Assembly: GCA_004298675.1 (NCBI GenBank)
Contig: SCRI01000058.1
Coordinates: 77,081-141,080 of the forward strand
Origin: a bacterium
Lineage (GTDB): Bacteria > Vulcanimicrobiota > Vulcanimicrobiia > Vulcanimicrobiales > SCRA01
Length of the DNA stretch: 64,000 nucleotides
Reading direction: 5' to 3'
A model generated the notes under the pieces. That model made no database searches and had not been told where the DNA came from. It saw only the letters and a list, made by a program, of their open reading frames with translations. Of this stretch, positions 46,708 through 56,318 are shown one piece after another. The position numbers and the translations under genes are program-made. The stretch's first letter is position 1. Every line of letters begins with the position of its first letter.

Positions 46708-47409
46708 ATGGCAGCCCGTGTGTTGATCATCGAGGACGATCCAGATGTCGGCTCACTAGAGGAGACCCTCCTGCGCCAGGCCGAGTATGACACGCGCTGG
46801 GTCCTCACGGGGGAGGCTGGGCTGACGACCGCCTCGGCTTTCCGCCCCGACGTCGTGGTCCTGGATGTGGGGCTTCCCGACCGCAGCGGCTTAGAGGTCT
46901 GTGCCAAATTGGCGGAGAGTCTCGATGCCTTCATCCTCATGGTGAGCGGCCACACCCGCGAGGAGGACAAGCTCAAGGGCCTGGGACTGGGGGCGGACGA
47001 CTACATCACCAAGCCCTTCTCGGGCGGTGAGTTCGTCGCGCGCGTGGGCGCCTTTCTCCGGCGCCGCGAGCGCTACCGGGCCCACTCCACGGTGATGTCG
47101 CTGGCTTGCGGCGACGCCCTTCTCGATCGCAATCGCCAGGCGCTCGGGCGCAACGGCGCCATCTCCGTGCTGACGGCGCTCGAGTTCAAGCTGCTCTGGT
47201 TCCTCGCGGAGAGCGAGGGGCGTCTGTTGACGCGCGCGCAGATCCTGGAGCACGTCTGGGACGACGTCTCGGGCGTGCCGACGCGCGTGGTGGACGTGCA
47301 CGTGGCGGCGCTGCGTAAGAAGATCGCCGAGGTCGGAGCGGCGCTGCAGATCAACAGCGTGCGGGGCATCGGCTACCGGCTCGACGCCGTCGTAGCCGTC
47401 GAGCCCTAA
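46708..47409 (+). CDS. OmpR/PhoB-family response regulator
   Basis: A 233-residue regulator. The receiver has acidic residues at 10-12, phospho-acceptor Asp53 (VVVLDVGLPD) and ITKPFSGGE. The C-terminal OmpR winged helix runs from LTALEFKLLWFLAE through VVDVHVAALRKKI to the closing NSVRGIGYRLD. No kinase is adjacent. It lies 56 nt before the MocR gene and could control that operon. Confidence 0.94.
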   Translation: MAARVLIIEDDPDVGSLEETLLRQAEYDTRWVLTGEAGLTTASAFRPDVVVLDVGLPDRSGLEVCAKLAESLDAFILMVSGHTREEDKLKGLGLGADDYITKPFSGGEFVARVGAFLRRRERYRAHSTVMSLACGDALLDRNRQALGRNGAISVLTALEFKLLWFLAESEGRLLTRAQILEHVWDDVSGVPTRVVDVHVAALRKKIAEVGAALQINSVRGIGYRLDAVVAVEP

Positions 47410-47465
47410 ACGGTACCGTTACGCTCGACCTCACCCTCGATGCTCGCGATCCGCGCCCGCTCTAC

Positions 47466-48881
47466 GTGCAGATTGCGGATGGCGTCGTCGAGGCGATAGA
47501 ATCGGGACTGCTCGTGCCCGGCGAGCGCCTGCCGCCGATGCGCCCGTTGGCGGCGCGCTTGAGTTGCGGTCTGGTCACGGTGTCACAAGCCTACGAGCTG
47601 CTGGCGGCACAGGGGCGCATCACGACGCGCGTGGGCCGCGGCTCCTTTGTAGCGGAGCCTGCCAAGGCGGAGGCCGGAGAGTCGCCGTTCATGACACGCT
47701 GGGAGCCGGATCTAGGCCGGCTCGCCATGCGCGGGGAGCGCATGGAGGGTGTGCTGGAGGAGCTTTCGCGCGCGAGCATCCCGGGCGCGATCTCGCTGGC
47801 TACCGGCCACCCCGCCCCCGAGACGTTTCCCCTCTCCGACTTTGGCCGCGCGCTGGCGCGCACGCTAGCGGAAGATCCGCCCGAAGCGATGCAGTACCGG
47901 GCCGCACGCGGCGACGATGACCTCTGCGAGATGCTGGCGGCGGGGCTGCGGACGCGCGGCTGCCGCGTGGCCGCCGACGAGATCATCGTCTGCAGCGGCG
48001 CGCAGCAAGCCGCCGATCTCGTGGCAACCGTGCTGCTGGCGCGCGGGCGCGAAGTCGTAGCCAGTGAGTCTCCAGCCTATGCCGGCACCCTGGGGGTCTT
48101 CGACGCGCGCGCGGTCAGTTACGTTGCCGTCGCCTCCGATCGCGACGGCATCCGCGTCGACGATCTCGACCGCGTGCTCGCGGAGTATCGGCCGCGCCTG
48201 CTCTACGTCAACCCGGTGGCGCAGAATCCCACCGGCGCGATGCTGCTCGAGCGGCGCGCGCGCAGGATCGTCGAGTTGGCCAGGCGTTACGACGTGGTGG
48301 TCTTGGAAGACCAGACGGGGCATGCGCAGGTGTACGAGGGGCGCGCTCCCTCGCCGCTGCTGGCTTACGATACCGACGGGCGCGTGATCGTCATGGAGTC
48401 ACTCTCCAAGACGGTCTTCCCCGCTCTACGCATCGGGTACCTCGCCGCCAAAGGACCCTTGCTCGAGCCGCTGGTGCACGCCAAGATGCGCGCGGATTCC
48501 TTTACTTCCACCCTCACGCAGCGCGCCTTGTGGCGCTTCATGGCCGGCCCGGCGTGGGCGCGCCACCTACGCCACTCGCGTCATCTGTACCGCGCCCGCC
48601 GCGATGCGCTGGTAGAGGCTCTGACCGTGGAGCTGCCGTGGGCGCGGATTGCGCCGCCGGCCGCCGGCCTCACGCTCTGGCTGCCCCTGCCGGCGCGCAT
48701 CTCGACGCGTGCCGCCTTTGAAGCCGCCGCCCGCGAGGGGGTGCTGGTCATGCCTGCGGAGCCGTACTATCCCACGCGGCAGGGCCCCGCGGCGCTGCGT
48801 CTCTCGTTCGGCGACGTGCCGGAGGAGTCACTACGCGAGGGCGCCGCTCGTCTCGGGCGCGCCCTCGGCCGCTTGATGTGA
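47466..48881 (+). CDS. MocR-type GntR/aminotransferase regulator
   Basis: About 471 residues. Residues ~1-65 are a GntR winged helix-turn-helix (LLVPGERLPPMRPLAARLSCGLVTV). Residues ~100-470 are a fold-type I aminotransferase domain with the PLP lysine in MESLSKTVFPALRIGYLA. Such proteins sense amino-acid or vitamin ligands, or sometimes act as aminotransferases. The conserved first strand (LDARDPRPLY) lies upstream of the GTG at 47466, in an open frame without ATG/GTG/TTG, so the real start is probably upstream. It overlaps the next gene's longest reading (GTGA at 48878). Confidence 0.9.
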   Translation: MQIADGVVEAIESGLLVPGERLPPMRPLAARLSCGLVTVSQAYELLAAQGRITTRVGRGSFVAEPAKAEAGESPFMTRWEPDLGRLAMRGERMEGVLEELSRASIPGAISLATGHPAPETFPLSDFGRALARTLAEDPPEAMQYRAARGDDDLCEMLAAGLRTRGCRVAADEIIVCSGAQQAADLVATVLLARGREVVASESPAYAGTLGVFDARAVSYVAVASDRDGIRVDDLDRVLAEYRPRLLYVNPVAQNPTGAMLLERRARRIVELARRYDVVVLEDQTGHAQVYEGRAPSPLLAYDTDGRVIVMESLSKTVFPALRIGYLAAKGPLLEPLVHAKMRADSFTSTLTQRALWRFMAGPAWARHLRHSRHLYRARRDALVEALTVELPWARIAPPAAGLTLWLPLPARISTRAAFEAAAREGVLVMPAEPYYPTRQGPAALRLSFGDVPEESLREGAARLGRALGRLM

Positions 48882-48952
48882 CCGTGCGAACGCCGGCAAG
48901 CGCGGCGTGTGGGGACAAGAGGGGCGCCGCCCTGCCTTGCGAAGAGCGGTTC

Positions 48953-51172
48953 GTGCGCTTCTCGATCCCCCGCGGCGGCATCCTAGCCGTCGCCGCTCTC
49001 ATGTTGCTGGCCGCCGCCCCCCACAAGCCGCGCGTGGCATTCTCCGCCCCCGCGGCGTACCAGCCGGCGGGCCCGCTGGAAGAACCGTTCGCGGCCGTGC
49101 TCCCCAGCGGCCGGGTCCTGCATCCAGCCGGCAGGAGTATCGCGCTGGGCCAGCACCCGTTGGCGCTGGCGTTGGCGCAGCAGGGTACCCTGGCAATCGT
49201 GGCCGGCCGCGCCGCCGCCGGTGCCGCCGGCTTGGCCGTGGTGGACCTCGCGACGCTGCAGACGGTGGTTCAACATGGCGTGGCGCTGCCTGCGGCGGTG
49301 CGGGCGCTGGCGGTGCTGCCGGATCGCGGCGCGGGCGAGCACGAGCTGGTGTTTGCGGCTGTCATCGGACGCGCCGAAGTAGACGTCTTCGACCTTGCTG
49401 CCGACGGTACGCTGCAAGCCGATGCAACGCCCACGATCGCGCTTCCCAATCTGCCACGCGGTGTGGTCTCGCTGGTGACCGCGCCTGCCGGCACGCAGCT
49501 CTACGCCGTGGGTGCGGACGGCGTTCAGACGATCGATGTGGCTACGCGCGCGGCGGTTGGGGCAACGGCTGCAGTGGGCATCGATCCGGTCGGGGCGACC
49601 CGCGCGGGGACGCTGTTAGCGGTTGTGAACGAGGGCGTGCCGGAAGGGCAGCGCGCCTACGATCTCAATGCCTCGTCGATCTCGTTGGTCCAGACCGCGA
49701 CGGGCACGCCCGCGAACGCCGGCCAGATTCCGCTGGACGGCGCACTCGACCCGCTGGTGAAAGTGGGCGGCATTCAGCCTAGCGCGGTGGCGTCGGAGGC
49801 CGACGGCACGCTCTTCGTGGCACTGGCCAACGCCGATCGCGTCGACGTCTTGAGGCGCGCAGGGCGCCCTGCACGCTATCGCCGGGTCGCCGTCATCGAC
49901 CTCAGCCTCTATCGTCATGCCCCCTTTGGAACGGCGCCCGATGCGCTTGCGATCGCGCCGGGCGGGCGGCGGCTCTATGCCGCGTTGGCGGGCATCGACG
50001 CCGTGGCTGTGGTGGACATCGCCGACCCGCGCCATCCCCGGCGTTTGGGCCTGCTCCCGAGCGGCTGGTTTCCGAGTGCTCTGGGGTTCTCGCGTCCCCA
50101 GGGTGAATTGATCGTAGCCAATGCCCTTGGTGACGGGCGTACCGGAACGCTGCAGGCCGTCAATCTCTCGACAGAGGCACTCTCGCCCGCGACGCTGGCG
50201 GCGCTACGCGACGTGCGCGTGGAACGTCCGATCAGCGAGCGCGATCCGGTGGTGCCGCAGGCTCCGGCGCTCGGTAAGAGCCGCTACATCGCTCACGTCG
50301 TCTCCATCGAAATCGATCCATCGACCTTCGATGCGACGCTGGGCGACCTCAGCGAAGCAGCGGGCGATCCCTCATTCGTCGAGCACGGCGCGGCCCAAAC
50401 CCCCAATCTCCATGCGTTGGCGCAGCGCTACGCCGTGGCTGCGAACTTCTATGCCGCCGCTGAGCCGGCGGAGTTGGATGAAGCCGTGGGCCTGGGCGGC
50501 AGGATCACGGTGGCCACGGCCCGGCGCGCGCTCACGCAGGGAACCGCCGGTACGCTCTCGCGCGGCGATGCGCCCCGCTTCGGATATCTCTACAACAATT
50601 TGGCGCGCCATCGCCTGACCTTCCGCGACTACGGCCATGCCGCGTGGCCGGGGCTCCCGGAGGCCGGAGAGGCTGCCGCATACGCCGGCGCGCAGGACGA
50701 TGCGGCACGTGCCGCCGCATTTCTCGCCGACTACCGTGCGCTTGCGCAAAGCGGCCGCGCGCCTGCTTTCGCGGCGGTGGTGCTGAGCGATGCCGGGGCT
50801 TCGGCTCAGGACCGGGCGGTTGGCGCGATCGTAGCAGGACTCTCGCAGGCGCCGCTCTGGAGCTCGACGCTCGTGGTGGTGGCGCCGCGCGGAGCGGCCG
50901 GTCAAGATCACGTGGATCCGCGGCGCAGCTTTGCGCTGCTGATCGGCCCCAACGTCAAGCCTCACTTCGTGGGGCGCCTCCATCTCTCGTCCGCCTCACT
51001 GCTCAAGACCGAAGAGGAGATCCTGGGGCTTCCGGCGCTGTCGCTGGGGGATTTGCTCGCTAGCGACTGTGCCGACTTCTTCACGCCGGCCGCCGCCGAC
51101 GCCACGCCGTTCGTCGCCGTGACCGGCTCGCCGCGCGAAGGGGCCCAGGGCTTGCCGAGAACGTCGCCGTAA
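48953..51172 (+). CDS. secreted YVTN beta-propeller protein with degenerate phosphoesterase domain
   Basis: About 739 residues. Residues 1-30 form a signal peptide (MRFSIPRGGILAVAALMLLAAAP). Residues ~50-400 are YncE/YVTN-like propeller blades. Residues ~405-710 align with the alkaline-phosphatase/phosphoesterase fold (TPNLHALAQRYAVAANFY, then SSASLLKTEEEILGLPALS). The usual acidic and histidine metal ligands after DNFY and in the EDDxQ segment seem replaced (ANFYAAAEPA; APRGAAGQDHVD). The GTG at 48953 gives a sensible signal peptide; a GTG at 48878 would overlap the mocR stop but adds an odd 25-residue leader. Confidence 0.8.
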   Translation: MRFSIPRGGILAVAALMLLAAAPHKPRVAFSAPAAYQPAGPLEEPFAAVLPSGRVLHPAGRSIALGQHPLALALAQQGTLAIVAGRAAAGAAGLAVVDLATLQTVVQHGVALPAAVRALAVLPDRGAGEHELVFAAVIGRAEVDVFDLAADGTLQADATPTIALPNLPRGVVSLVTAPAGTQLYAVGADGVQTIDVATRAAVGATAAVGIDPVGATRAGTLLAVVNEGVPEGQRAYDLNASSISLVQTATGTPANAGQIPLDGALDPLVKVGGIQPSAVASEADGTLFVALANADRVDVLRRAGRPARYRRVAVIDLSLYRHAPFGTAPDALAIAPGGRRLYAALAGIDAVAVVDIADPRHPRRLGLLPSGWFPSALGFSRPQGELIVANALGDGRTGTLQAVNLSTEALSPATLAALRDVRVERPISERDPVVPQAPALGKSRYIAHVVSIEIDPSTFDATLGDLSEAAGDPSFVEHGAAQTPNLHALAQRYAVAANFYAAAEPAELDEAVGLGGRITVATARRALTQGTAGTLSRGDAPRFGYLYNNLARHRLTFRDYGHAAWPGLPEAGEAAAYAGAQDDAARAAAFLADYRALAQSGRAPAFAAVVLSDAGASAQDRAVGAIVAGLSQAPLWSSTLVVVAPRGAAGQDHVDPRRSFALLIGPNVKPHFVGRLHLSSASLLKTEEEILGLPALSLGDLLASDCADFFTPAAADATPFVAVTGSPREGAQGLPRTSP

Positions 51173-51184
51173 AGAGAGACTCTT

Positions 51185-52030
51185 GTGTCTGAGGCAGTGA
51201 TGGAACGTCCAACGACGGATTTTGTGACGCACGAAGCGGGGCGTCTGCAATGCGTGCTCGTGATCCCTCCCGACGCCGGCTTCGAGCGGGTCCGGCCCAT
51301 CAAGGGCGAGGGTCCGCCCATCTCGGCGCGCGCCGCCATCGAGCATCAGGTCTTCGTCCGGACGCTCGAGAGCAATCGCGTCGAGGTCGTAGAGCTGCGC
51401 GCCGCCGCGCACCTGGGTATGGCGACGCTGGTGCGCTCGACGGCCATCATGCTGGCCGGAGGCGCGGTCATCGGGCGTCTGACCGATCCCGAGCGGCGCG
51501 GCGAAGAGGAGGCCGTGCGCGCGCTGCTCGAGCAGCGCGGCATTCCAGTCCTCGGCGCAGTCGAAGGCCCCGGTGCCCTCGACGCGCGGGACGTCGTCCT
51601 GATGGGCGACCGCATCGTCGCGGCCAAGACGCGCGCGACCAACGCCGCGGGGCTCGAGCAGTTGGAGCGCATCGCGCACGAGTCCGGCCTCACGTTGCGC
51701 GAGGTGACGCTGGCGCGAGGGGTCAGCCATCTGGGCGACGTCTTCTCCGTGCTCGACACGCAGCTGGCGGTGGCGGTGCCGGCGTTGGTGCGCGGCGACG
51801 GGCTGGAGGGCGTGGAGATCGTGGCGCTGCCGCGCGAGTCGGCGGGGGCGGCGGATTGTCTGACGCTCGCGCCGCGGCTCGTCGTCATGGATCTGCGCAA
51901 CGCCGCTGCATGCGCCGTGCTCAAGCGCAGGAAGATTGCCGTCGAGGCCATCGATCTCTACGATTTCGGCCGCGCCGGAGCAGGTCCGTCGGCGCTGGCG
52001 TTGCCGTTGAGACGGGCGCCGCTGCGCTGA
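51185..52030 (+). CDS. DDAH/amidinotransferase-superfamily protein, catalytic residues apparently lost
   Basis: A 281-residue protein. The overall pattern (AIMLAGGAVIGRLTDPERRGEEEAVRALL, GPGALDARDVVLMGDRIVAAKTRATNAAG, LGDVFSVLD) resembles dimethylarginine dimethylaminohydrolases and arginine deiminases. The superfamily's Asp/Glu near the start of its first repeat reads RST here. The catalytic-His position before LGD reads TLARGVSH, and the C-terminal nucleophile Cys region reads GAGPSALAL. It may be non-enzymatic or bind a guanidino or amino compound. The last base of its stop codon (TGA, 52028-52030) is the first base of the ABC ATPase start codon (ATG at 52030). Confidence 0.65.
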   Translation: MSEAVMERPTTDFVTHEAGRLQCVLVIPPDAGFERVRPIKGEGPPISARAAIEHQVFVRTLESNRVEVVELRAAAHLGMATLVRSTAIMLAGGAVIGRLTDPERRGEEEAVRALLEQRGIPVLGAVEGPGALDARDVVLMGDRIVAAKTRATNAAGLEQLERIAHESGLTLREVTLARGVSHLGDVFSVLDTQLAVAVPALVRGDGLEGVEIVALPRESAGAADCLTLAPRLVVMDLRNAAACAVLKRRKIAVEAIDLYDFGRAGAGPSALALPLRRAPLR

Positions 52031-52974
52031 TGGCATCCGCGCCGTCTGCGGCGCCGGCAATCGCGGTCCACCAACTCGTCAAGCGCTACGGGGATGCGAG
52101 GGCGGTTGACGGCATCTCGTTCAGCGTCGAGCGCGGTGATTTCTTCGGCTTCCTCGGTCCCAACGGAGCGGGCAAGACGACGACGATCAACGCGATCGTG
52201 GGGTTGGCGCGCATCGATGGCGGGCGTATCGAAATCTTTGGACACGACGTCTCGACGGCGTGGCGGCAGGCTCGCCGCCTGATCGGGTTGGCGCCGCAGG
52301 AGTACAACTTCGACCGCTACCTGCGCGTGCGCGAGATCCTGATGTATCAAGCAGGCTACTATGGTTTGCGCCCACGTGACGTAGCCGCGCGCATCGACGC
52401 GCTGCTGGAGCGCTTCGCTCTGGGCGTGAAGGCCGATGCCTTCGTCTCCCAGCTCTCCGGCGGCATGAAGCGGCGTTTGACCCTGGCGCGCGCGTTGGTG
52501 CACGATCCGCAGATCGTGATCTTGGACGAGCCGACGGCGGGCGTGGACGTGGAGCTGCGGCTGGAGCTCTGGGAGACATTGCGCGCCCTGCGCCGCGAGG
52601 GCAAGACGATCATCCTCACCACCCACTACCTCGAAGAGGCCGAGGCGCTGTGCGAGCGCGTCGGTATCATCGAGAACGGGCGGATGGTAGCCTTGGAGGA
52701 GACCGCGCACCTGCTGCGCAGCCACGCCCGCGACGAGCTGACGATCACGTTGGCTCACCCCGTACAGGAGCCTCCGCCGGTCCTGGCGCATTTCGGGGCG
52801 CGCGTCGATCCCCAGGACGGCGCGCGCCTGCGCTTCGAGCGGCTGGGCCCGCTCGAGCTCAGCGAGGTGCTGGCGCTGCTCGGGCGCGCGGGCATCGACG
52901 TGGAGGCGGTCAACACCGAGCGCGCCACGCTGCAAGACGTTTTCCTCGAGTTGACGGGCAGAGGGGCGCGATGA
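52030..52974 (+). CDS. ABC-2 type exporter ATP-binding protein
   Basis: A 314-residue ATPase with an NBD at residues 10-235: Walker A GPNGAGKTT, Q-loop LAPQEYNFD, signature LSGGMKRRL, Walker B VILDEPTAGVD and the switch LTTHYLEEAEAL. A ~75-residue C-terminal domain follows, as in drug/polysaccharide/antibiotic exporters (DrrA/NodI-like). It starts at ATG 52030, one base inside the preceding gene, and overlaps the permease by 4 nt. The substrate is unknown. Confidence 0.93.
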   Translation: MASAPSAAPAIAVHQLVKRYGDARAVDGISFSVERGDFFGFLGPNGAGKTTTINAIVGLARIDGGRIEIFGHDVSTAWRQARRLIGLAPQEYNFDRYLRVREILMYQAGYYGLRPRDVAARIDALLERFALGVKADAFVSQLSGGMKRRLTLARALVHDPQIVILDEPTAGVDVELRLELWETLRALRREGKTIILTTHYLEEAEALCERVGIIENGRMVALEETAHLLRSHARDELTITLAHPVQEPPPVLAHFGARVDPQDGARLRFERLGPLELSEVLALLGRAGIDVEAVNTERATLQDVFLELTGRGAR

Positions 52975-53732
52975 ATCTCATCGGTCTCTGGACGCTGGTC
53001 AAGCGTGAGATGAAGCGCAGCTTCCAGATCATCAATCAGGTGATCTGGCCGCCCATCATCTCCACGCTGCTCTACGTCTTCGTCTTCGGCTTGGCGCTGG
53101 GCAGCCGCATCAAAGGCATCCAGGGCGTCAGCTACGCGCAGTTTCTGCTGCCGGGCCTGGTGATGATGCAGGTTATCGACGGCGCCTACGGCGAGTCGTC
53201 CAGCTCCATCTTTCAAGCGCGTTTCACCTATGCGATACAGGAGATGCTGATCGCGCCGATGAGTGCGGGCGAGATCGTTTTCGGCTATGTCTTCGGCAGT
53301 GTGCTGCGCACGTTCCTCATCGCCAACGTGATCATGGTGTTGGGGCTCGTGCTGCTGCACACGGTGCCGGCGTCCTGGGGACTCTACGTGTTGGTGCTGC
53401 TGCTGGTAGCCGTGCTCTTCGCCGCGCTTGGGATCATTTTCGGCCTGATGGCGGAGAAGTACGACAACATTGCCGTGCTCACGACCTTCGCGATCACGCC
53501 GCTGGTCTTCGTGGGCGGCGTGTTTACCTCGATCCACCTCTTGCCGCCGGTGGTGGCGCACCTCTCGCTGCTCAATCCGATCTTCTACACGATTGATGCC
53601 TTCCGTTATAGTTATACCGGTCAGTCGGACGTGGGCTTGGCCGTCTCGCTGCCGGTGGTGGCGGCGCTGACGGCGGCGGCCTACGCGATTGCCTACGCCA
53701 TGGTGCGAGCGGGGTACAAGTTGCGGGCATGA
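52971..53732 (+). CDS. ABC-2 type exporter permease
   Basis: A 253-residue membrane protein with six helices. NLIGLWTLVKREMKRSFQIINQVIWPPIIS is the N-terminal membrane entry, and YAQFLLPGLVMMQVIDGAYGESSSS is the ABC-2 signature loop. The late LNPIFYTIDAFRYSYTGQSD is typical of NodJ/DrrB-type exporters. It overlaps the ATPase gene by 4 nt (ATGA) and the oxygenase gene by 4 nt (ATGA), so all three are translationally coupled. Confidence 0.93.
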   Translation: MNLIGLWTLVKREMKRSFQIINQVIWPPIISTLLYVFVFGLALGSRIKGIQGVSYAQFLLPGLVMMQVIDGAYGESSSSIFQARFTYAIQEMLIAPMSAGEIVFGYVFGSVLRTFLIANVIMVLGLVLLHTVPASWGLYVLVLLLVAVLFAALGIIFGLMAEKYDNIAVLTTFAITPLVFVGGVFTSIHLLPPVVAHLSLLNPIFYTIDAFRYSYTGQSDVGLAVSLPVVAALTAAAYAIAYAMVRAGYKLRA

Positions 53733-54481
53733 ACGAGCTGAGCACGGGTACGGACGCGCTCTTCGAGCGTGAGCTCGCAGCCCATCTGCGCGCGCTGACG
53801 TCCAGCAAGATGGAAGAGCTGCGCGCCCAGTTCCGCGCCGAGTCGTGGGTGCTCTTGGGTCGTCTGCTCCCTGAGGCCTGGGAGCAGCGAGTGCGGCGGG
53901 AGGCCTGGGACGTACTCGAGCGGCGCGGGGTGCAGCGCGACATCAGCGTGCCCGAGACGGGCCACTCGCCGCGCCGGCTGCGCAACGTGCGCCAGCGCGA
54001 GATTGCCGCGGAGACCGAGATCCTTCCGCGCCTCTACTACGCCGGCGCCCTGCGTACACTGGTTGCGGAGATTGCGGGCAGTCCCGCGGAGCTCTGCCCC
54101 TTCGCGCCGGAGCGTTTCGTCCTGGCCTCGATGTCGCGCGTGGGTGATACGCACGGCTGGCATTGGGACGACTATGCGTATGCGTTGGTGTATCTCATCG
54201 ATGCCCCGCCGGTGGGCGCGGGGGCGGAGGTGGAGTATCTGCCGGGCGTTGCGTGGGAAAAACAGCAGCCTTGCGTGCAGGAGCACCTCGCCGCGGGGCG
54301 CGTGCGCAAGCGGCGCGTCGAGTCGGGTGAAGCCTATCTGCTGAGGGGCGACACGACGCTGCACCGCGTCGCGCCGCTGGAGCGCGACGCAACGCGCGTG
54401 GTCTGCGCCATGGCCTACGCCCATCCCGACGATCTCACGCGCGCGATCACGCACGAAACCACCGAAGCCTTCTATCGCTAG
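53729..54481 (+). CDS. Fe(II)/2-oxoglutarate oxygenase, HalD/BesD-like
   Basis: A 250-residue double-stranded beta-helix oxygenase. The iron triad is His145, Asp147 (GWHWDDYAY) and distal His212 (TTLHRVAPL); Arg223 probably binds 2-oxoglutarate. The 67-residue distance between first and last His equals that of the lysine halogenase BesD (His137-His204). Here the middle residue is Asp, not the Gly that makes BesD a halogenase, so a hydroxylase is expected if homologous. GAGAEVEYLPG and the LLRGDTTLHRV block fit free-amino-acid oxygenases. It is coupled to the exporter permease by a 4-nt overlap. Confidence 0.82.
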   Translation: MNELSTGTDALFERELAAHLRALTSSKMEELRAQFRAESWVLLGRLLPEAWEQRVRREAWDVLERRGVQRDISVPETGHSPRRLRNVRQREIAAETEILPRLYYAGALRTLVAEIAGSPAELCPFAPERFVLASMSRVGDTHGWHWDDYAYALVYLIDAPPVGAGAEVEYLPGVAWEKQQPCVQEHLAAGRVRKRRVESGEAYLLRGDTTLHRVAPLERDATRVVCAMAYAHPDDLTRAITHETTEAFYR

Positions 54482-54490
54482 AGCTTCGTG

Positions 54491-55321
54491 CTAGACCCCG
54501 GAGAAGAAGGGGTTGTGGCGGCGCTCCTGCGCGATCGTCGTCGGGGGCCCGTGCCCGGGCAGCACCACGCTCTGCTCGTCTAGCGCGAAGAGGCGCATGC
54601 GTACGCTCTTCAAGATGTCGTCGTAGGTGGAGGCGTCGCCGGCGGCCGCGCCCACGCTGCCGGCGAAGAGCGTGTCACCGGTGAAGACGAGATTGCGGAA
54701 GAGATAACAGACGCTGCCGTCGGTGTGCCCGGGCGTGTGCAGCACGCGGATCTCCGCTTCGCCGAAGGGCACGTGCTCGTCGTCCTGCAGCTTCATGGCG
54801 CGGTGCTCGAGCGCTCCGATAGCGAAGGCGTCGTGGCGGTGGATGAGTATCTGCGCGTCGGGGAAGGCACGCGCGACGTCCGCGGTCGCGTCGCAGTGAT
54901 CGGCGTGCTTGTGCGTGATCAGGACGTAGCGCAGGTGAAAGGGGCCGTCGGCAACGGCGCGCAGCAGACGCTCGGGCAAGCCGGCGGGGTCCACCAGAGC
55001 GGCGATACGCGTCTGCTCCAGGAAGAGCAGGTAGCCGTTGCTTGGGTGCGGTGCGTTGATGTGGTGGCGCACGTCGCTGGGTAGCCCGGTGGCAGGGTAC
55101 CAACGCTGGAAGACGGCGTCGGCGAAGCGGCCGGGGTCCAAGCTCAGCGCGCGCGCGATGCGCCGCGCCTGCTCCTCCGTGGGCTGCTCCCGGCCGCCGG
55201 CGACGGCTAGCACCAGCGCGGGCTCCAGCTCCGTCTCGCGCGCCAGGGCCGCGGCATCTTTCCCGGTACCCCGCTGCGCCTTGCGCATGATGTCGGTATA
55301 GTCGTCTTCGAGCGCAAGCAT
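54491..55321 (-). CDS. MBL-fold metallo-hydrolase with N-terminal HTH-like domain
   Basis: A 276-residue protein. Residues ~12-70 look like a Cro/CI-type helix-turn-helix (KDAAALARETELEPALVLAVAGG, ARALSLDPGRF). Residues ~85-270 are a metallo-beta-lactamase fold with the dinuclear zinc motif HKHADH (137-142), VLHTPGHTDGSV and FTGDTLFAGSVG, as in hydroxyacylglutathione hydrolases/persulfide dioxygenases. The ATG at 55321 starts the conserved part; the frame is open further. It is divergent from trxB, 61 bp apart. Confidence 0.85.
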   Translation of the reverse strand: MLALEDDYTDIMRKAQRGTGKDAAALARETELEPALVLAVAGGREQPTEEQARRIARALSLDPGRFADAVFQRWYPATGLPSDVRHHINAPHPSNGYLLFLEQTRIAALVDPAGLPERLLRAVADGPFHLRYVLITHKHADHCDATADVARAFPDAQILIHRHDAFAIGALEHRAMKLQDDEHVPFGEAEIRVLHTPGHTDGSVCYLFRNLVFTGDTLFAGSVGAAAGDASTYDDILKSVRMRLFALDEQSVVLPGHGPPTTIAQERRHNPFFSGV

Positions 55322-55382
55322 GGGGGGCGCTTCGCCCTGGGCGGCAACCGGGACCTGGCTAACCCGGGTTGAAGAGGGCGCC

Positions 55383-56318
55383 ATGGAGAAGGTCATCATC
55401 ATCGGCTCCGGCCCCGCCGGGCTGACCGCCGCGCTCTACACGGCGCGCGCCAATCTCTCGCCGCTGGTGCTTGCCGGCGGTCTCTACGGTGGGCAGCTCA
55501 TGCTGACCACGGAGGTCGAGAACTATCCCGGCTTCCCCGAAGGCATCATGGGTCCCGATCTCATGGAACGCTTTCGCGCGCAAGCCGAGCACTTCGGCGC
55601 GCGTATCCGCAACGAAGATTGCACCCGGGTCGACTTTAGCGGCGGGCGCCGCCGCGTGTGGGTGGGAGAGGAGGAACTGGAAGCCGAGTCGGTGATCGTG
55701 GCTACCGGCGCTTCCGCCCGCTGGCTGAACCTGCCCAACGAGGCGCGCCTGCGCGGACGCGGCGTCTCCACCTGCGCGACGTGCGACGGCGCCTTCTTCC
55801 GCGATAAGGAGATCTTGGTGGTGGGCGGCGGCGACTCCGCGATGGAGGAGGCGCTCTTTCTCACGCGCTTCGGCAAGCGCGTCCGCGTGATCCATCGGCG
55901 CGGCGAGCTGCGTGCCAGCAAGATCATGGGCCAGCGCTGCCTCACGCACGCGCAGATCGAGTTCGTCTTGAACAGCGTCGTCGAGGACGTGACCGGCGAT
56001 CCCGTGATGACCGGAGCGCTGGTGAGGAATCTCGTGACTGGAGAGGTGACCAAGCTCGACGCGGACGCGCTCTTCATCGCCATCGGCCACGATCCGAATA
56101 CGGCGGCCTTCAACGGCCAGCTCGAGTTGGACGACGCGGGATACATTCGCTCGGAAAACGGCGTCACGACGAGCGCGGTGGGCGTCTTTGTCGCCGGCGA
56201 CGTCTTCGATCAACGTTATCGCCAAGCCGTGACGGCGGCCGGTAGCGGCTGCCGTGCCGCCCTCGAAGCGGAGAAGTATCTCGAGCACTGCGCGGCAGTG
56301 CAAAGCGTCGAGGTGTAG
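55383..56318 (+). CDS. trxB: thioredoxin-disulfide reductase
   Basis: A 311-residue low-Mr TrxR. It has an FAD-binding IIGSGPAGLTAA, a redox CATC at Cys131-Cys134, an NADPH-binding VVGGGDSAMEEA and a C-terminal FVAGDVFDQRYRQAVTAAGSGCRAALEAE, all intact. It transfers electrons from NADPH to thioredoxin. GAAGAGGGCGCC precedes the ATG at 55383. Confidence 0.95.
   Translation: MEKVIIIGSGPAGLTAALYTARANLSPLVLAGGLYGGQLMLTTEVENYPGFPEGIMGPDLMERFRAQAEHFGARIRNEDCTRVDFSGGRRRVWVGEEELEAESVIVATGASARWLNLPNEARLRGRGVSTCATCDGAFFRDKEILVVGGGDSAMEEALFLTRFGKRVRVIHRRGELRASKIMGQRCLTHAQIEFVLNSVVEDVTGDPVMTGALVRNLVTGEVTKLDADALFIAIGHDPNTAAFNGQLELDDAGYIRSENGVTTSAVGVFVAGDVFDQRYRQAVTAAGSGCRAALEAEKYLEHCAAVQSVEV

Follow-up and report, generated by a model that had tools for sequence, protein, structure and literature searches.

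The window analysed here, a stretch of 64,000 nucleotides, carries what we read as a genus-specific version of an order-wide operon, in which an ABC-2 exporter is translationally coupled to a catalytically dead relative of dimethylargininase (DDAH) and to which a hydroxylase of the HalD/BesD family has been added behind the permease gene. We give this reading a probability of about 0.38. On the sequences compared, the DDAH-like protein and the exporter belong together and the oxygenase is a lineage-specific addition. The run lies on contig 43 of a 3.03-Mb MAG of the Vulcanimicrobiota (Eremiobacterota, WPS-2), soil and groundwater bacteria that have been the subject of few studies.

The six genes of the run are all on the + strand and in the order given by the initial annotation, and their families were confirmed by re-reading and by Pfam and NCBIfam matches. 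Upstream lies an OmpR/PhoB-type response regulator (46708-47409, + strand; Pfam Response_reg and Trans_reg_C), a neighbour kept in most relatives. The run itself comprises a MocR-type regulator (47466-48881), with a GntR HTH (PF00392) and a PLP aminotransferase-like domain (PF00155, class I/II aminotransferase); a beta-propeller protein of YVTN-type similarity with a degenerate phosphoesterase-type domain (48953-51172); the DDAH-like protein (51185-52030), with ADI/DDAH similarity and putatively of the pentein superfamily; a DrrA/NodI-like ABC-2 exporter ATPase (52030-52974; Pfam ABC_tran, 109 bits); a permease of the PRK15066/YadH type (52971-53732; Pfam ABC2_membrane, NCBIfam NF011648); and the HalD/BesD-family Fe(II)/2OG oxygenase (53729-54481). 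It is bounded by a convergent gene for a hydrolase of the metallo-beta-lactamase fold (MBL; 54491-55402, - strand), a neighbour conserved in the order. Tight packing had been proposed for six genes from the DDAH-like gene onward. Only four genes lie from that point on, and among these the packing is as described, with overlaps of 1 nt (DDAH-like/ATPase), 4 nt (ATPase/permease) and 4 nt (permease/oxygenase), the last of which suggests that the oxygenase may be co-translated with the permease. The gap from the propeller gene to the DDAH-like gene is 12 nt. The 4-nt overlap between the MocR and propeller genes hinges on a GTG (48878) that is absent from the sister species; the propeller homologues there begin at the position corresponding to GTG 48953, and from that start the gap would be about 70 nt. 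The MocR frame from GTG 47466 seems to lack the conserved N-terminus TLDxRDPRPLYVQIA, and its true start is probably further upstream; no in-frame ATG, GTG or TTG was found just upstream (47380-47466). PdxR is the nearest MocR family, and the score of 297.4 bits remains below the NCBIfam equivalog cut-off of 320. Separate promoters within the run had been named as evidence against a coupled unit. The sole promoter-like match on the coding strand downstream of the MocR gene is at 53584-53612, and it was discarded as an internal promoter because its -10 element is not conserved in the sister species.

The oxygenase was assigned to a family acting on amino acids, as had been proposed: it scores 252.2 bits against PF23169 HalD (cut-off 26), aligns with HalD, HalB and BesD from the PDB and with a hydroxylase homologue, and its AlphaFold model (pLDDT 95.5) superposes on BesD, HalB and HalD with TM-scores of 0.83-0.91. 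In the halogenases, a Gly in place of the carboxylate (H-x-G) frees the halide site (PMC13244439). All three copies of the genus have the carboxylate-bearing hydroxylase form of the triad, H145-W-D147...H212, so that a BesD-type halogenase was rejected on the presence of Asp147 rather than Gly; the L-lysine 4-chlorinase equivalog of NCBIfam was rejected on score (153.6 of 450 bits). BesD residues R77, E123, H137 and D143 contact lysine in simulations (PMC13244439). Their equivalents are all kept in the oxygenase and invariant in a 37-row alignment, in which R82, E128, H142, H145, D148 and H212 do not vary and D147 does. The protein thus combines the H-x-D...H triad of HalD-family hydroxylases with their Arg/Glu/His/Asp substrate contacts. 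BesD N222 is a succinate contact (PMC13244439); since the oxygenase has Ala at the positions of both N222 and T224, details of cofactor and substrate binding may differ from BesD.

The linkage of this oxygenase to the exporter is confined to the genus of the window. The gene was found in the operon, with the same tight junction, in three of the four genomes of the genus and at none of the 47 sister-family loci examined, several of which end at contig edges; a conserved oxygenase-exporter synteny was rejected on this count. HalD-like genes of the sister family, where present, lie away from the operon. The HalD-like hydroxylase gene of G020 (L057, 9342-11453) adjoins a class-III aminotransferase gene on the opposite strand. 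In other bacteria, no DDAH-like or propeller gene was found within 4 kb of HalD relatives at 78 loci; relatives elsewhere adjoin NRPS (judged by eye), ATP-grasp, LysE-exporter or haem-oxygenase-like genes. Among them, alphaproteobacterial HxD hydroxylase genes (L134, L143, L145, L153, L169) directly precede a LysE-type exporter gene, and at several of these loci an AraC regulator flanks the hydroxylase gene on the opposite side; this is an independent pairing of an oxygenase with an exporter. It is quite possible, if short of even odds, that the oxygenase is a passenger, a hydroxylase whose acquired gene came to lie behind an operon that is expressed, and which works independently of the exporter. 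Besides the distribution within the genus and the sister family, the phylogeny is consistent with such an origin: the tree, built from 84 relatives, unites the HxG forms in one group and places the genus copies on an isolated long HxD branch (1.63 changes per column) that lacks near relatives. Another family within the order also carries, in an unrelated position, a decayed remnant of this oxygenase subtype (G070 contig 10; L075, 8353-8569), matching at 63% over 35 residues, with an in-frame stop and the shared signature CAMxYAxPxDLTRAxTHETT; it lies just upstream of ORFs that by eye resemble a type III CRISPR-Cas set. Against a passenger, the oxygenase is under constraint (dN/dS 0.15-0.18) at the same junction in three species, and it is absent jointly with the transporter in the fourth genome of the genus (G003, 82% complete). 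There the ATPase, permease and oxygenase genes are missing together at this place, the propeller and DDAH-like genes persist, and the DDAH-like gene is followed by the convergent MBL gene within about 25 nt; no permease or oxygenase orthologue was found in that 82% complete genome.

The exporter ATPase falls below the NCBIfam drrA cut-off (258 against 312 bits); the permease passes PRK15066 (NF011648; 234.3 bits, cut-off 225). One literature search on YadGH turned up no publication that names its cargo. The propeller protein has a signal-peptide-like N-terminus, as judged by eye, and may therefore be secreted. Its relatives match PF04185 Phosphoesterase and a Lactonase propeller. It is under purifying constraint (dN/dS 0.15-0.23), and its C-terminal phosphoesterase-type motifs are degraded in the genus of the window, where the EENKTYD-type motif is lost. 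The propeller is the looser member of the cluster: its spacing to the DDAH-like gene is looser across the order than that from the DDAH-like gene to the permease gene, and 1-3 kb separates the two genes in loci L078, L079 and L080 (genus g38, relatives of V. alpinum). Together with an ABC transporter, such a protein could form a periplasmic or envelope system like PedA1A2BC, serving metal- or PQQ-linked metabolism and not amino compounds. PedA2 is a YVTN propeller whose gene adjoins those of an ATPase and a permease (PMC6839425), and the propeller and ATPase show weak matches to PQQ_ABC families. We consider this quite unlikely, however, because the permease reaches 25.3 of the 241 bits required for the PedC family and matches YadH instead, and no PedA1-like periplasmic binding protein was identified in 46708-54481.

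Across the order, the DDAH-like gene and the exporter genes are conserved as neighbours. An order-wide profile detected the DDAH-like gene in 101 of 103 genomes, with E-values mostly around 1e-100 inside the order and 3e-46 or weaker outside. In the sister family the usual gene order is malic enzyme, response regulator, MocR (not always present), propeller, DDAH-like protein, calcineurin-type phosphoesterase, ABC ATPase, ABC permease, convergent MBL hydrolase and TrxB. The five core genes from propeller to permease are present in this order at 41 of 47 loci (propeller 46, phosphoesterase 44, ATPase 45 and permease 44, each of 47). Median gaps from the DDAH-like gene through the phosphoesterase and ATPase to the permease are 7, -4 and -4 nt across the order. 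The phosphoesterase (PF12850/PF00149), whose gene in most relatives separates those of the DDAH-like protein and the ATPase, is missing from the run in the genus of the window and from the equivalent place in G062 and G020; the genome of the window has distant paralogues only. Part of the synteny may be passive, the whole contig lying in a conserved block. We consider it very unlikely that slow rearrangement of this block is all that has preserved the gene order and that the proteins have unrelated roles. In favor of such an account, the flanking genes for malic enzyme, PmbA, the MBL hydrolase and TrxB are conserved too, and a second stretch of 20 kb from V. alpinum is collinear with the same contig; yet adjacency was kept for only two of 14 gene pairs in other stretches, a small sample drawn from 0.8 Mb with a crude gene caller, and overlapping start and stop codons are seen again in dozens of genomes.

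The DDAH-like protein is similar to DDAH over about 230 residues (phmmer, 5e-15), and it misses the NCBIfam dimethylargininase cut-offs by a wide distance (68.6 of 340 and 59.4 of 450 bits). In an alignment to the Pseudomonas enzyme, Cys249 is replaced by Ala270, Glu65 by Arg84, Asp66 by Ser85 and Glu114 by Asp133. The nucleophilic Cys is missing from all 51 in-order DDAH-like copies compared, and the catalytic His is retained, as His182, in the genus of the window only, being replaced by Arg, Ser, Ala, Cys or Pro in 47 of 47 copies outside it; an active DDAH was ruled out on this residue table. Eight DDAH homologues outside the operon retain both His and Cys. Homologues with intact catalytic residues (L060, L071-L074) are found in other parts of the class, and G059 and G093 have such homologues as second copies; none of these is linked to the operon. 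Glu42 and Arg238 are invariant and Arg49 is present in 50 of 51 copies, and these residues are largely peculiar to the operon form. Given a dN/dS of 0.13-0.19 between genus members, which indicates purifying selection on a protein that lacks the nucleophile, we regard it as a maintained pseudoenzyme. The AlphaFold model, built from a three-row alignment, was poor (pLDDT 44), so the putative assignment to the pentein fold, a five-bladed alpha/beta propeller, rests on a sequence match to DDAH structures; a literature search on pentein pseudoenzymes gave nothing directly useful. A remaining catalytic activity of another kind, relying on some other nucleophile, is highly improbable. In its favor, neither Asp136 nor Asn153 varies, 48 of 51 copies have Asp133, and the genus retains His182; against it, the position of the nucleophile shows no constraint (Met, Ser, Leu, Ala, Gln, Arg, Val or Asp) and that of the His varies outside the genus. 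Of the two proteins that the initial annotation had described as enzymes without catalytic residues, the DDAH-like protein thus bears out the description, and the propeller does so within the genus but not in several relatives, which keep the phosphoesterase-type motifs.

Combined, these results firmly show an order-wide DDAH-like/exporter operon to which the genus has added a hydroxylase. The six-part pathway for modification and export of a small amino compound that was originally proposed is supported only in part: the linkage of the exporter and the DDAH-like protein holds in relatives; that of the oxygenase fails there, an outcome that the initial annotation had named as refuting, and so does that of the MocR regulator, present at 27 of 47 sister-family loci, and the order-wide phosphoesterase is absent here. 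We propose that the DDAH-like protein would act as a non-catalytic accessory of the exporter, either binding a ligand or gating transport; gene order is what suggests a contact with the transporter. The hydroxylase would be cytosolic and have a free cationic amino acid, similar to lysine or ornithine, as its substrate; the product or a derivative of it would be one cargo of the ABC-2 pump. No other biosynthetic enzyme is present in the run. Because most of the order keeps the exporter without such an oxygenase, the oxygenase cannot define the main cargo. Our confidence in this mechanism, in which the pump has an accessory binder and carries a hydroxylated amino acid, is moderate to low. A bolder version, in which a dead DDAH became a subunit dedicated to ligand sensing or gating in an ABC-2 exporter and one genus secretes a hydroxylated cationic amino acid by means of an added HalD-family hydroxylase, is doubtful.

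That a pseudoenzyme is found in 101 of 103 genomes, and beside a pump at almost all of the loci examined, suggests a core role, one that the automatic annotation 'dimethylargininase' would mask. A strain of the order, Vulcanimicrobium alpinum WC8-2, is in culture, so the link between the DDAH-like protein and the pump can be tested. If it is an active hydroxylase, the oxygenase would extend a family that has uses in biocatalysis by a divergent HxD member.

Several known systems share parts of this arrangement. With dimethylargininase, the DDAH-like protein shares the similarity over about 230 residues and several structural Asp, Asn and Arg positions; unlike it, the operon form has no nucleophilic Cys, has lost Glu65 and, in the genus, Asp66, and is bound to the operon. 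The oxygenase shares with the HalD/BesD halogenases and their hydroxylase homologue (PDB 7jsd, 9oet) the fold, the 2OG-binding arginine and the lysine-contact residues, with H-x-D as in the hydroxylase; in contrast to the halogenases, it lacks H-x-G, has Ala at BesD N222 and T224 and sits behind an ABC-2 exporter. YadGH/DrrAB-type exporters have the same ATPase and permease architecture, and the permease exceeds the PRK15066 cut-off, whereas the exporter described here is coupled to a pseudo-DDAH and a putatively secreted propeller. In PedA1A2BC of Pseudomonas putida a propeller gene likewise adjoins ABC ATPase and permease genes, but the permease here is of another family, and the genes examined include neither a PedA1-like binding protein nor a PQQ dehydrogenase.
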